Shown here: positions 6,215 through 38,617 of the stretch, piece by piece
How positions within the stretch are numbered: position 1 is the stretch's first letter
Layout of the letters: each line of letters starts with the position of its first letter
Source of the DNA: Acidobacteriota bacterium
GTDB taxonomy: Bacteria; Acidobacteriota; UBA6911; JACOSC01
Direction: 5' to 3'
Length of the DNA stretch: 48,989 nucleotides
Assembly (NCBI GenBank): GCA_016179055.1
Contig: JACOSC010000079.1
Location: 1 to 48,989 of the forward strand
Notes under the pieces: generated by a model
Told to the model about the DNA's origin: nothing
The model's input: the letters and a program-made list of their open reading frames with translations, nothing else
Database searches by the model: none
Position numbers and translations under genes: made by a program

Positions 6215-6300
6215 TGGCCGTCGTAATTGTCACGTATCGGTCGGCGCCGCTTTAGAGGAAAGGCTGGCGGCTCATGGGGGTGTGATTTCGGCACGATGTA

Positions 6301-6465
6301 AGCTCCGTAGGAGCGACATGTTTATAGCAGGGGCTGCTCGCTTTATGACCCAAGCCCCGTGGGGGCGACATGTGAACTATCACGACCAACCACATGTCGC
6401 TCCTACGGAGCTTGAGGCCTCCTTCTAGGTACACTTGGCTATAAACATGCCGCCCCTACGGGGCT
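6301..6465. repeat. Palindromic repeat group, four A-type units in tail-to-tail order
   Basis: Four copies of a unit built as AGCTCCGTAGGAGCG or AGCCCCGTAGGGGCG followed by (A)CATGTTTATAGC: forward at 6301-6328 and 6353-6375, reverse at about 6391-6413 and 6438-6465. Each core is itself a short palindrome. The same arrangement occurs at 26188-26366. It lies in the gap between the VWA gene and the legumain-like gene. Confidence 0.85.
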
Positions 6466-6576
6466 GTTACTTATCCTGATCTGATGATATTTTTCATCTG
6501 GTCAAGTACATCGTACGGAAATCGCATCCCGTTCGAGGTCTGTATGGGAAGCGCATCTTGTCAAACACCGGGAGTC

Positions 6577-13071: not shown

Positions 13072-13609
13072 TTAGCCCCGGTAGGGGCGACATGTTTATA
13101 GCAACGGCATCCGGTATAAGAGCCAAGCTCCGTAGGAGCCCCCCAGCTTGGCCTAACGGCACGCAGATAACAAGGAGAAACTGGGGAAGTTTCAAAGGAG
13201 CTTGGCGTTTCGACATTTTGGAGCGGGCCGGCGCCGATCCTACGAAGCAGGCGAACCATAAAGTCGCAAGCGCCCCGGCCGGGGCGCAAGGAGATTAGCC
13301 TGGGGCAAGCGCAGCGCCGCCCCAGGACTCATGGGCCCATCCCCCTCGAGCGCCCCGGCAGGGGCGCGGAGAGGGGGTTGGCTTACCAGAAACCATAGCG
13401 CTGAAGATGAGCTGATGATGCAGACCCCGATGAGTCGATGACCACTCGGCGCCCCTGCCGGGGCGCCGGTGTTCTAGGGAACTCGCGACCTGGGGCGCTC
13501 TGGAGATTGGACATTTCAAAGAGCAAGTATTACCGGTCAATCACGATTGTAGTCGAACTTTAACGACACGCAGAATAAAGAAGAAGCTGGGGGACTCCTC
13601 CGGAGCTTA
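13072..13609. repeat. Composite palindromic repeat (copy 1) splitting the MoxR cluster
   Basis: A mosaic of A-type units (CCCCGGTAGGGGCG with CATGTTTATAGC), a longer hairpin around GCTCCGTAGGAGCC...AACTGGGGAAGTTT, a GGACATTTTGG segment with GAAGCAGGCGAACC, a B-type hairpin (GCCTGGGGCAAGCGCAGCG), and GGAGATTGGACATTTC near the 3' end. The order and sequence match 33528-33945 closely apart from an extra B-type block here. The bases 12892-13071 and 13610-13759 hold no gene that I can recognise. Confidence 0.8.
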
Positions 13610-15847: not shown

Positions 15848-16029
15848 CCGGTAGCGGCGAAGCGCTCGTTGATTCGCTATGGCGATAATCCCTGAGATCC
15901 TGGGACAAAGGGCGGCGCTAAGGCTCGGGCCCGTTACATTCACTGTCCAAGCCCAGGGAATGTATGATATTCTGAAGTTCGAGCATAAGAAACGTGCGGA
16001 TGCCAAAATCCACCCCCCTGTGGGCCCTT

Positions 16030-16422
16030 GGAGTTTGGACATTTGTATGGAGTAGGGTGCTGCCTACAATCCAAAGCTCCGAAGGAGCGAACTGTAATAG
16101 CCAGGGGCAAGCGAAGCGCAGCCCCTGGAAAGAAAGCGTCCCCAGTACGCCAGCCCTGAAGGGGCGTACTAATGGAGATCAATTCCTATGCCGCCATCGT
16201 TGTCTTCCATATGTATTCATCGAGCAAAAGGTTAGCGCGCCCTTTCAGGGCGCCTATCTTCGCCCATATTACGTACCAGGGGCGGCGCTGCGCTTGCCCC
16301 TGGCTAATTATAGACCGCTCCTACGGAGCTACGCGAACCAACTTCAGGCTATGGCGGGGCGCTCGCTCGAAGTGGTGGGGACAAAAGGATCGCGCGGGGC
16401 TGTGGCCAATGTCCAAACTCCA
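16030..16422. repeat. Nested inverted repeat cassette I (D-A-B-C-tail-C'-B'-A'-D')
   Basis: Symmetric nest around a 70-base centre: GGAGTTTGGACATTT (16030) pairs with AATGTCCAAACTCC (16408); AGCTCCGAAGGAGCG (16075) pairs with CGCTCCTACGGAGCT (16316); a CCAGGGGCAAGCG...CCCCTGG hairpin (16101-16128) pairs with one at 16276-16303; CCCTGAAGGGGCG (16154) pairs with CGCCCTTTCAGGGCG (about 16239). The centre, read on the minus strand, ends LLLDEYIWKTTMAA-stop, possibly the eroded C-terminus of a tyrosine transposase. The flanks 15848-16029 and 16423-16618 hold no recognisable gene. Confidence 0.8.
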
Positions 16423-16618
16423 GAGCCCCCGTGCGGGGTCGGCGCCGCTACTACTGTCTGATAGGCTTATGATCGAATCTCAGTATGATATTCTCAATGG
16501 TAGAGGAAATGCGGATCTCTTCTGCGATTGTCGAAATGATTAGCGGCAGACGCGGGCAGGGGCCGGCGTGCGCTCGGGAATTTCACAAATATACCTCTTA
16601 CACTGTTGGAGAACGCGT

Positions 16619-22143: not shown

Positions 22144-22395
22144 ACGTAATAACTCTCTCCGATAGTAGGAGGCCTGTCTGCCGGTTTAGCACAATTTTAA
22201 TTCCGGTTCTAGTTTACATAAGGGTCGCATCCCCCGCAATGGGTACTGCGCCGGCCGGAAAGCTCAACCCCGAGGTTACTTGTTTCGTTTCTATTCTTGG
22301 CTTTGTGCTATACTCGCCGTTGCTCCATGATTATTTGGTTTTGGACCTGTACTGGTGCGAACTAATTGAACCACAAAAGGCACAGAAGACACAAA

Positions 22396-22549
22396 ATGGA
22401 CGAGAAAGCGATACTGGCGTTGTGCGACAGAGTAAGGCAGACCACATCGGCTTCAGGCGCTCGGATATTTACGTGCCTCGGGACATCGGCACGCCTTGCT
22501 GATCAACTTCGGCGCGCCTAAAATCCAATTCAAGAAACTCATTTTGTGA
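22396..22549 (+). pseudogene. GxxExxY family protein, internal-deletion copy
   Basis: The first 15 or so codons (ATGGACGAGAAAGCG...) match the start of the 550-912 gene at DNA level, and the last 100 or so bases (from GCTCGGATATTTACGTGCC to the stop) match its end, while about 210 bases of the centre are missing. The remaining 154 bases are not a multiple of three, so the frame is broken. The flanking inverted ends of copy 1 are preserved here (22371-22393 and 22545-22567). This is a decayed deletion derivative and would behave like a non-autonomous MITE if the ends are mobile. Confidence 0.8.
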
Positions 22550-22596
22550 TTTTTGTGCTTTATGTGGTCAATTTCTTGGGCTACTTGTCCGCTTCC

Positions 22597-24568: not shown

Positions 24569-24689
24569 AAAATCCTCCAATAAGATTAAGTAGGTTCGAC
24601 CGGCCCCCAGGCCATAATGATCATCCATCCATTAATGCGCCACTATACTTCGAGCGGGCGTAAACTATTATTTTAGGGGGCCCACTCTT

Positions 24690-24769
24690 ACAGAACCGGG
24701 AGCGGTAGCGACCGGGTGGCGAACCCTTTCACAACGGGCCAACCCGGTCGCTACCGCTCCCGGTTCTGT
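24690..24769. repeat. Perfect 28-bp inverted pair of F-family units
   Basis: Bases 24690-24717 and 24742-24769 are exact reverse complements over 28 positions, with a 24-base loop. The arm begins ACAGAACCGGGAGCGGTAGC and is related to the single units at 21078 and 45007. It is upstream of the dipeptidase gene in a gap of about 450 bases; no gene was found around it. No U-run follows, so it is not a classical terminator. Confidence 0.85.
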
Positions 24770-25024
24770 TACTTTGTGACCGTTCAAAGTATATACCTAC
24801 GGGTGTGACGATCGGCAAGTCATGGTCAAGACGAGAGCTGTTTCTTGTACGCGGCGAGATCCATCATTAGACGAAATATCCAGAAGATGTCTTGCCGAAG
24901 TTTCACGGTGCGTACAACTACGGCCAACCTTGTCATAGCCTTGGATGCTGTATCTTTCAATAAAAAGTTTTTGGAAAAGTGGCACAGGCTTCCCGACTGT
25001 GTGGACAGGCAAGAGACCTGCCCT

Positions 25025-25454
25025 CGGAGTTTGGATATTATCCACAGGCCACGCGATGCCCAGCCATAGCCCAAAGCTTGTTCTTGTAGCTCCGTAGGAG
25101 CGAGCTATAATAGCCAGGGGCAAGCGCAGCGCAGCCCCTGGTATGTAAGACTATAGAAGTTTTAAGCCCTGAAAGGGCGGGCTACCTTCTGCGAAACTAC
25201 CGACCTCAATCCCAGACATAACGTTCATCCAACCCAACCCCGTATTTCCGGTACAAGACGCGCAGCTCATCCTGAAACGCGTGGCGCTAGTGTAAGAATT
25301 GATCTTCCTTAGTGCGCCCTTTCAGGGCTTACGCGCGAGGGGCGGTTTCTTTCCAGGGGCGGCGCTTCGCTTGCCCCTGGCTATTATAGAACGCTCCTCT
25401 GGAGCTTTGGGTTGTAAACGGCACCCCGCTCGATACCAAATGTCCAAACTCCAG
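25025..25454. repeat. Nested inverted repeat cassette II carrying a transposase tail
   Basis: Same nested plan as cassette I: GGAGTTTGGA (25026) with TGTCCAAACTCC (25441); AGCTCCGTAGGAGCG (25088) with CGCTCCTCTGGAGCT (25392); B hairpins at 25114-25141 and 25353-25380; GCCCTGAAAGGGCG (25166) with CGCCCTTTCAGGGC (about 25315). The centre holds the end of a transposase gene, listed separately. Confidence 0.8.
25206..25286 (-). pseudogene. REP-associated tyrosine transposase (Y1), C-terminal fragment
   Basis: A minus-strand open stretch of 26 codons ends with LYRKYGVGLDERYVWD and a stop. Ending on (Y/F/L)DERY(V/L)WD is typical of IS200-like/REP-associated tyrosine transposases. Upstream the frame closes at a TAG at 25287-25289, so only the tail remains. 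It lies exactly at the centre of cassette II, between the two C units. Confidence 0.6.
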
Positions 25455-25565
25455 GGACAGGCAAGAGGCCTGCCCCACTGTCTTTGTCCCATTCTGATGC
25501 CAAATGTCCTTCCTTAAGGTCTATAGAACCTGCCGGAATCACCCCTTAGCACAAACGGCTGATTA

Positions 25566-26162: not shown

Positions 26163-26388
26163 TGTAACTACTCAGGCAATGCGTCTCAGCCCCGTAGGGG
26201 CGGCCTGTTTGTAGTAGCGATTCCTATGGTAGGTCCTTCAGCTCTGTAGGAGCGACCTGTCCGGACACATTCGTCGACGAAATCAACCTTACACAGGCCG
26301 CCCCTACGGGGCTTGTTCGAACTCACGCATGGATTTGTGCTATAAACAGCTCGCTCCTACGGAGCTAAAGGCACTGGCTGAGTAGTTA
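26163..26388. mobile_element. A-type repeat group with inverted GTAACTACTCAG ends
   Basis: Four A-type units (26188-26210, 26240-26260 forward; about 26292-26313, 26339-26366 reverse) are enclosed by GTAACTACTCAGGC at 26164 and its reverse complement near 26375-26388. The same ends enclose a larger composite at 33507-34071. A MITE-like non-autonomous element is a reasonable reading. Confidence 0.6.
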
Positions 26389-26427
26389 CTTTGTATTTTA
26401 CTTGTCACTGGAGCTGTTTTTATTAAT

Positions 26428-33506: not shown

Positions 33507-34071
33507 GTAACTATTCAGGCATGCCTCTCAGCCCCGTAGGGGCGGCATGTTTATAGTAACTGGGATTCCGAAACAGTCAAGCTCCGTAGGAGTCCCCCAG
33601 CTTGTCTTAACGACACGCAGAATAATGAAGAAACTGGGGAAGTTTCTAAGGAGCCTGGAGTTTGGACATTTTGGCGCGGGCCGGCGCCAATCCTGCGAAG
33701 CAGGCGAACCATAAAGTCGCACGCGCCCCGACAGGGGCGCTGAGAGGTGCTTGACCTAAGGCCCTAGAGCTGAAGATGAGATGATAATGCAGTATCAAAT
33801 GAGTCTGTGACCTCTCGGCGCCCCTCTGGAGCGCTCTGGAGATTGGACATTTCAAAGAGCAAGTATGACCGGCCAATCACGATTGTAGGCGAGCTTTAAC
33901 GACGCGCAGAATAAAGAAGAAACAGGGAAGTTTCTAAGGAGCGGCATGTGCAGGCTTTGATAATAAAGACTCTGTACATGTCGCTCCTATGGAGCTTGAC
34001 TACTATGCAATGGCTTCTGGCTATAAACATGCCGCCCCTACGGGGCTATGGAGCGCCTGCTGAGTAGTTGC
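33507..34071. mobile_element. Composite repeat element with GTAACTA(C/T)TCAG inverted ends (includes composite copy 2)
   Basis: GTAACTATTCAGGC at 33507 and the reverse complement of GCAACTACTCAGCAGGC at 34055-34071 enclose A-type units at both ends and, between about 33528 and 33945, the same mosaic as 13072-13609 (GGAGTTTGGACATTTTGG, GAAGCAGGCGAACC, GGAGATTGGACATTTC, GCAGAATAAAGAAGAA). No transposase is encoded, so it would be non-autonomous. No gene was found in 34072-34148. Confidence 0.65.
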
Positions 34072-35159: not shown

Positions 35160-35344
35160 CCGCAACGTGCGGCGCCCGTCCTTCACTGGCCGGCATTGCC
35201 ATGGATACTTTGAGCGGGCATAAATTAACATTTTTGTAAATGCTCAGGCTATGGGGCCGTATCTCTCGGTGAACTCTGTGTCTCTGTGGTGAGAAAGGAG
35301 AGGCCATGTTGGAGGGATTTCAAAACCATCAAACCCTCGTATGA

Positions 35345-35585
35345 ATAAAGGGCGCGCTAATGGGGACGAAGTCCTATGCCGCCGTCGTTGTCTTCCATAC
35401 GTATTCATCGAACAGAAGGGTATCACGCCCTTTCAGGGCTTATAACTTATATAATCTTACATACCAGGGGCTGCGCTGCGCTTGCCCCTGGCTATTATAG
35501 AACGCTCTTTCAGAGCTATGCGAACCCGCTTCGGACTATGGCAGGGCGCCGCGTGGCCTGCGGCAAATGTCCAAACTTCAGGGCC
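35345..35585. repeat. Half cassette III (tail-C'-B'-A'-D')
   Basis: Right half of the nested plan: a centre (35358-35425) nearly identical to that of cassette I and reading LLFDEYVWKTTTAA-stop on the minus strand, then CGCCCTTTCAGGGCT (35427), a B hairpin (35464-35491), CGCTCTTTCAGAGCT (35503) and ATGTCCAAACTTCAG (35567). The left half is missing. Upstream, 35273-35305 holds CTCTGTGTCTCTGTGGTGAG, a repeat type often found near GxxExxY genes. Confidence 0.75.
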
Positions 35586-38177: not shown

Positions 38178-38273
38178 AGCGGTCGCGTTAGGGGATCGCA
38201 TGCTAAAAACACTAGCCTGGAAATCAATGGCAAAGATACGCGTGAAAGCGGCTGGAAACCCACCGGCAGAAGT

Positions 38274-38383
38274 ATCTTCTCAATAAATTCGGGTACAGGC
38301 CTTTCCCAAGATTCAGTAGTGGCATGTGGCCGTGCGCCCCTACATTTTTGGGATGATCCCATACCCCCGATTTATAGAGAAGA
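38274..38383. mobile_element. 110-bp MITE-like element, copy 1
   Basis: Begins ATCTTCTCAATAAATTCGGG and ends with CCCGATTTATAGAGAAGA, which are imperfect reverse complements. The body (CCAAGATTCAGT, TTGGGATGATCC) matches copy 2 at 38491-38599 in the same orientation. Too short to encode anything. Confidence 0.7.
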
Positions 38384-38402
38384 CTCGATGTCGGCCAATT
38401 AT

Positions 38403-38485
38403 ATCCCTGAAAGGGATACCTAAAATAGCCGGGGGTGGAGCGGAGCGGAACCCCCGGCTATCTTATTCGGCCCTTTCAGGGCCGG
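38403..38485. repeat. Palindrome between the two MITE copies
   Basis: ATCCCTGAAAGGGAT, a TAGCCGGGGGTGGAGCGGAG...CCCCCGGCTA hairpin (about 38426-38460) and GGCCCTTTCAGGGCC. It has the B/C architecture of the cassettes but a different sequence. Confidence 0.75.
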
Positions 38486-38490
38486 CGAGT

Positions 38491-38599
38491 ATCTTCTCAA
38501 TAAATTGTGTAAGGGCTTCTTCCAAGATTCAGTGACAACATGAGTCCGCGGGCCCTGACATTATTGGGATAATCCATTGCCCCGATTTATTGAGAAGAT
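38491..38599. mobile_element. 110-bp MITE-like element, copy 2
   Basis: Begins ATCTTCTCAATAAATT and ends AATAAATC-type inverted sequence (CCCGATTTATTGAGAAGAT), 16 or more bases of near-perfect inverted ends. It lies 18 bases past the sufR stop and might serve as its terminator hairpin as well. Confidence 0.7.
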
Positions 38600-38617
38600 G
38601 CCGGCAGAGGCTCTCCG

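Follow-up and report, generated by a model that had tools for sequence, protein, structure and literature searches.

The origin of REP- and REPIN-like repeats has so far been argued by analogy; the 2011 proposal, of descent from the hairpins that flank an IS200-like element, was put forward as one possibility, and the associated RAYT genes were described as single copy (Bertels and Rainey 2011, PMC3116915). In TnpAREP systems cutting is guided by a GTAG foot and commonly falls at C|T (PMC8266576). IS200/IS605 elements are reported to carry no terminal inverted repeats and to make no target duplications of any size (PMC2817692), and the IS200/605 MITEs described in PMC3852290 have neither inverted nor direct repeats; the PATEs of Haloquadratum appear to be a further example of an IS200/IS605-type MITE (PMC3119063). 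The TnpA_Y1 transposases of subclass 1.2 are defined by the motifs DH[IV]H, WQ and Y..NQ..HH, a length of ~148 residues and a short C-terminal domain (motif table, PMC6006769), and their published description is of low-copy genes that lack both REP-like sequences and the properties of insertion sequences.

The window analysed here, a stretch of 48,989 nucleotides from an Acidobacteriota bacterium, contains a discrete repeat, cassette II, at 25024-25454. It is a non-autonomous element with CTGGAGTTTGGACATTT/AAATGTCCAAACTCCAG as its ends, in which three hairpin pairs are nested around the remnant of a Y1 (HUH) transposase gene, its last ~26 codons; the hairpins A, B and C lie on either side in inverted order, with the coding tail between the two C hairpins. 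The genome (G000; 5.3 Mb, 334 contigs) contains many relatives with 81-87% identity, and conservation from copy to copy ends at CTGGAGTTTGGACATTT and, on the other side, at the inverted form of this motif. The original prediction had the place right but the start wrong by assigning the extent 25025-25454. We think it probable that cassette II is a MITE-like derivative of a subclass 1.2 Y1 transposon, deleted once, copied, mobilized by a Y1 enzyme and inserted with duplication of a hairpin. Its features are as follows.

25003-25023, plus strand: left member of the flanking direct-repeat pair (GGACAGGCAAGAGACCTGCCC), which is a hairpin in its own right and a presumed target-site duplication; 20/21 identical to 25455-25475, the pair abutting both ends, with a hairpin energy unlikely by chance
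25024-25040, plus strand: left end module D, a variant of CTGGAGTTTGGACATTT, at which copy conservation ends (motif at 262 genomic sites, reversed control 0)
25088-25101, plus strand: left hairpin A, seen in the sequence and conserved in copies
25110-25113, plus strand: guide-like ATAG foot ahead of hairpin B (a TAG or AGG foot occurs in 35/98 hairpins beside subclass 1.2 genes)
25114-25141, plus strand: left hairpin B (CCAGGGGC...GCCCCTGG), seen in the sequence, in copies and in hairpins beside relatives
25166-25178, plus strand: left hairpin C (GCCCTGAAAGGGC), on the same three lines of evidence
25206-25286, minus strand: Y1 transposase coding tail of ~26 codons, stop at 25206-25208, matching the intact gene in protein and DNA
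25292-25293, minus strand: deletion junction (consensus TTCCTA|CACCAGCGCC), with parental reference positions 192-556 missing; common to 23 retrieved copies
25316-25328, minus strand: right hairpin C, seen in the sequence and in copies
25353-25380, minus strand: right hairpin B, from the sequence and inverted-repeat pairing, with the inverted foot CTAT at 25381-25384
25393-25405, minus strand: right hairpin A, seen in the sequence
25438-25454, minus strand: right end module D (AAATGTCCAAACTCCAG), from comparison of D motifs
25455-25475, plus strand: right member of the flanking direct-repeat pair (GGACAGGCAAGAGGCCTGCCC), pairing with 25003-25023

Read on the minus strand the tail gives (TAG)-RHAFQDELRVLYRKYGVGLDERYVWD-stop, and the TAG directly ahead of it closes the upstream frame in cassette II. 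Compared with an intact gene of the same genome, the tail is 70% identical over 40 amino acids (E 2.8e-11), and the DNA of the tail-bearing side is 87% identical to the intact element over 268 bp; the predicted combination of a hairpin nest with a Y1 coding tail is indeed present at this place. As single-stranded DNA, cassette II and its flanks fold into one long nested hairpin (z = -10 against shuffles). The arrangement is not a product of chance, as it is common to 23 retrieved copies. All copy counts given here are lower bounds, based on searches and ~303 kb of retrieved DNA.

A search of the genome for the Y1 family returned 19 places. Three of the loci found in the genome, C74:7401-8213, C15 and C256, encode a protein of 150 amino acids whose last residues are CRKYGVGLDERYVWD, and two further copies of the gene, at C190:9406 and C230:27181, are broken off by contig ends after 43-44 codons. 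Each of the three intact genes lies between the two cassette halves, the element at C256 being cut by a contig end. The check proposed with the original prediction, a full-length copy in which D-A-B-C modules flank an intact Y1 gene on either side, is answered by C74:7401-8213 (loci L037/L059), whose 3' end aligns with 25206-25286. At C15:4684-5379 (L035) and C256:7636-8216 (L032) the order A-B-C is retained, but the outer end is not D and consists of a hairpin around CCCCGTTAGGG, then GGAAACAATCCGCC; elements seem to have exchanged their outer ends. The three intact genes are under purifying selection (dN/dS 0.13-0.15). A second Y1 gene, at C208, is 38% identical to the main one and shares its D ends, with other hairpin modules.

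In an alignment of 32 proteins the 150-residue transposase displays DHIH, WQ and Y..xQ..HH, with H55, H57, W95-Q96, Y115, Q119 and H122-H123 at the motif positions. By these motifs the protein fits TnpA_Y1 subclass 1.2 and is not a RAYT proper: in place of the Y---NP motif of TnpAREP/RAYT (class 2) stands YITGQKDHH / YIANQKEQH. The label 'REP-associated tyrosine transposase' in the original prediction is thus inexact. Pfam recognizes a Y1_Tnp domain (E 4.9e-23). A sequence search against solved structures gave no match; an AlphaFold model built with 32 sequences (pLDDT 88.7) found IS608 and ISDra2 TnpA as the best solved structures in a fold search, with the REP-bound RAYT 4er8 further down.

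The nearest relative in the genome collection, 50% identical, is from a Verrucomicrobia MAG, and others come from Planctomycetes, Bacteroidetes, Acidobacteria and more. Inverted hairpin arms also enclose many of these relatives' genes and, in the clear cases, have the same order: first a hairpin, next a short spacer with TAG or AGG at its end, then hairpin B, which is rich in GC, and last a gene-proximal hairpin. Beside 43 subclass 1.2 genes the foot triplet was TAG in 18/98 and AGG in 17/98 hairpins, AG making up 5.4% of the dinucleotides in those arms; the foot is a strong trend and not a rule, since about half of the loci had no such hairpin at the settings used. Derivatives were sought in one planctomycete and one Bacteroidetes genome with relatives, and only a single copy or a few arm pieces were seen. 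At four Bacteroidetes loci (L166, L178, L192 and L153) the hairpins beside subclass 1.2 genes are ACCCCGAAGGGGT and CAGGGGTGTAAACCCCTG, which may link other intergenic repeats of the Bacteroidetes to Y1 genes.

The alpha and beta deletions were mapped on a reference of 831 bp from C74, in which the gene occupies 191-643. Class alpha, the type of cassette II, lacks ~192-556 of the reference and keeps the end of the gene, while class beta lacks ~214-656 and keeps its first codons. Class gamma, found in at least 12 places, consists of the arms of C208 joined without the frame (~191-642 missing). The two other cassettes of the window belong to class beta.

16028-16423, plus strand: cassette I, class beta, which keeps the start of the gene (ATGCCGCCATCGTTGTCTTCCATA, 16188-16211) and lies inside another palindromic repeat (Z)
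35338-35581, plus strand: cassette III, class beta, without the left arm

The earlier proposal that the cassettes keep the 3' end of the gene is therefore right for cassette II; cassettes I and III keep the beginning, so the three are not one lineage. The window also holds, at 24666-24793, a palindrome of the type ACCGGGAGCGGTAGCGACCGGGT; at C279 the loop of a palindrome of this type contains an alpha copy.

A direct repeat of 21 bp, absent from the original prediction, flanks cassette II on both sides (25003-25023 and 25455-25475). Among 43 D-ended elements, 11 had direct repeats above the 99th percentile of mispaired flanks and a twelfth lay at that percentile; all of these repeats are within 4 bp of both element ends. 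They are 15-29 bp long and mostly hairpins, which in most cases fold more readily than shuffles (combined p ~1e-13, with a floor of 1/400 per test; C302, C66, C279 and C53 alone are not significant). Such duplications are unexpected for a Y1 enzyme, as IS200/IS605 elements are reported without them (PMC2817692). It should be emphasized that clear direct repeats are absent at both intact D-ended elements (C74 and C208), which counts against a simple insertion story.

It could be argued that an unrelated DDE-type transposase, recognizing the D ends, moves all D-ended elements and that the Y1 gene is a passenger. Terminal inverted repeats together with direct repeats are indeed the usual mark of DDE enzymes, and Y1 elements are reported to make neither (PMC2817692). 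The distribution of the ends, however, makes this explanation unlikely. The D motif occurs at 262 sites in the genome at <=1 mismatch (none in the reversed control), and of the 161 distinct D ends in retrieved DNA 140 could be matched to one of the two Y1 elements or to the end of beta, and thus belong to two Y1 elements and their derivatives. Another 12 represent a composite class, delta, and nine match nothing listed, most of those resembling the other delta end. None of the 161 ends was seen, in this fragmented assembly, to form a pair of insertion-sequence size around another transposase or to enclose a DDE gene, and no D-ended insertion sequence of 1-3 kb was found among the listed D sites. 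In addition, the duplications vary in length (~15-29 bp) with the hairpin and are not fixed, and the same ends occur at two quite different Y1 genes.

Several other repeats of the window touch on these families. Class delta is represented at 13176-13606 and 33629-33942, with D motifs in direct order and repeats TTAACGACACGCAGAATAA.GAAGAAACTGGGG on both sides; a parent gene, if there is one, was not found. A palindromic nest at 26164-26389 (also 6292-6466, 33507-33592 and 33967-34069) is 94% identical to the stretch upstream of a Y1 gene at C225:3286-3726, which is 33% identical to the main Y1 gene, and these nests are probably derivatives of the C225 lineage. In the nest at 38272-38601, which has inverted ends ATCTTCTCAATAAATT, the ends match the arms around the C146 Y1 gene, and the hairpin in the centre (38401-38457) matches the arm found with the Y1 genes of C67 and C302. 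A further repeat family is seen at 520-933 and 22375-22579, as inverted repeat pairs of 127 and 69 bp, 93-94% identical and 21 kb apart.

Empty sites were looked for because palindromic flanks could mimic direct repeats. The target ...GGGTG-GCGCAGACCTTTAGGTCTGCGA-TTAACTGATGAG... occurs without interruption at C50:20504 and also, apart from small differences, at C162:6897; these related empty sites each hold a single GCGCAGACCTTTANGTCTGCGA, with one mismatch at C162. The alpha copy at C278 and the gamma copy at C23:11937 break the same target right after the hairpin and have the hairpin on both sides, the duplicated hairpin being 22 bp long and exact at C278. Repeat Z gives a similar picture for beta and for the alpha copy at C221; beta perhaps entered Z once, as it is always in one orientation there. 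All of the insertion evidence comes from one fragmented assembly, and cross-species empty sites gave no useful match, the closest relative compared being of the same class only.

These sites also bear on the suggestion that the cassettes spread without transposition, by homologous recombination or gene conversion between hairpin repeats. In a tree of the arms alpha and beta cluster, yet neither is a clean clade, a sign of exchange between arms or of weak signal; such mixing is what recombination would give, and the single orientation of many beta copies in Z would suit one insertion followed by spread of the composite. Alpha and gamma copies, however, have dissimilar surroundings and duplications that abut them, and empty targets exist, which leaves recombination an improbable account of the dispersal.

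The single origin of each class rests on the junctions and not on the arm tree. One junction, TTCCTA|CACCAGCGCC, is present in 23/23 retrieved alpha copies, and one beta junction is common to 18 complete copies, besides the truncated cassette III. As a common junction recurs at many places, each deletion was a single event followed by copying; no fewer than two deleted forms, alpha and beta, have multiplied in this way. Since they keep opposite ends of the gene, the full form is the ancestor of both, and the original proposal of descent from a full transposase element by loss of most of the gene is borne out, for alpha as a single deletion. The alpha consensus is 93.5% identical to C74 (88% for individual copies), which fits a C74-like source. 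The alpha tails are no longer maintained, as indicated by stops in 8/23 of them and a pN/pS of 0.66. Internal deletion, dispersal and duplication of the hairpin between empty and occupied sites are thus all recorded in this genome.

The reverse order, in which the cassettes came first and one of them later captured a transposase gene, could draw on the loss of almost exactly the open frame in class gamma and on the hairpin arms beside many subclass 1.2 genes, but is very improbable, and is refuted for alpha and beta: these retain different coding parts at parental positions, for which deletion accounts and capture does not. That every cassette is a full copy that decayed independently, to which an age implied by copies ~13% apart might lend some colour, is scarcely credible and refuted by the common junctions (23/23 alpha, 18/18 beta).

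On the account we favour, the history of cassette II is as follows. A single internal deletion took out the catalytic three quarters of the gene and spared both inverted arms and the last ~26 codons; the deleted form then reached at least 23 places by copying, and class beta goes back to a deletion of its own. The enzyme is most likely provided in trans by the intact Y1 copies of this genome, and it would recognize as its signal the NTAG-footed hairpin B in each arm; by analogy, the NTAG foot may work here as GTAG does in TnpAREP systems. Insertion would take place beside a pre-existing hairpin, which becomes duplicated. As a palindromic target presents the same hairpin foot on both strands, nicks could fall one hairpin length apart, and repair after the two foot nicks would duplicate the hairpin; nicks at hairpin feet would account for the varying length of the duplication. 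A broader claim is more tentative, and we would sooner doubt than assert it: that subclass 1.2 Y1 elements make up a mobile-element type of their own, whose A / NTAG-B / C arms are conserved in several phyla and whose insertion into palindromes proceeds through foot nicks on each strand, with gap repair duplicating the whole hairpin.

This case shows how hairpin-rich bacterial repeats can arise from a mobile gene, as one genome holds the full element, two partly gutted forms (one with the end of the gene, the other with its start) and one fully gutted form. A Y1 subclass thought to be neither mobile nor linked to REPs gains hairpin arms and derivatives. There is, in addition, a hint that insertion duplicates a whole hairpin at the target, and the hairpin duplication seen between empty and occupied sites makes the mechanistic question directly testable.

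Similar to REPINs and the REP-RAYT system (Bertels and Rainey 2011, PMC3116915; Nunvar 2010, PMC2817692), the cassettes consist of two inverted hairpins with a TAG-type foot, are dispersed between genes and are related to a Y1 gene with the same flanking hairpins; the inverted B hairpins, with an ATAG-type foot in both arms, are dispersed as a unit in 23 alpha copies. In contrast with that system, the foot is ATAG here and NTAG or AGG in relatives, instead of GTAG, and the enzyme is of subclass 1.2 and multi-copy, not a cognate TnpAREP; long terminal inverted repeats, flanking duplications and gene pieces inside the derivatives are further differences. As in internal-deletion MITEs, the elements are short, have terminal inverted repeats, contain no full gene and have an autonomous source element in the genome. 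The IS200/IS605 family has an HUH/Y1 enzyme of the same fold and known internally deleted derivatives, but IS200 itself (subclass 1.1) is marked by W[TS], Y[IV]ENQ and a lack of terminal inverted repeats and target duplications, whereas the present elements have WQ and Q..HH motifs, D ends as terminal inverted repeats, hairpin duplications and no tnpB between the element ends. TIRtrons (Di Nocera 2013, PMC3733652) likewise place a Y1 gene between terminal inverted repeats that also form a repeat family; their TIRYTs, however, are mostly of subclass 2.1 with a C-terminal helix-turn-helix, and many have GGGGWSAS, whereas the protein here has 150 residues with Y1_Tnp as its only Pfam domain, and the D end lacks that motif. 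TnpA_Y1 subclass 1.2 (Quentin 2018, PMC6006769) agrees in its DHIH, WQ and Y..xQ..HH motifs and ~148 residues, yet the low copy number and absence of REP-like sequences described for it do not hold in this genome, which has three intact and two contig-end copies and inverted hairpin arms of the kind also found beside relatives. Internal-deletion MITEs and REPINs are already known kinds. As far as the open-access literature shows, there is no earlier description of a Y1 element whose target duplications are variable and measured by structure, and the new contributions are the intermediate stages within one genome, the hairpin arms and derivatives now tied to subclass 1.2, and duplications the size of a hairpin.
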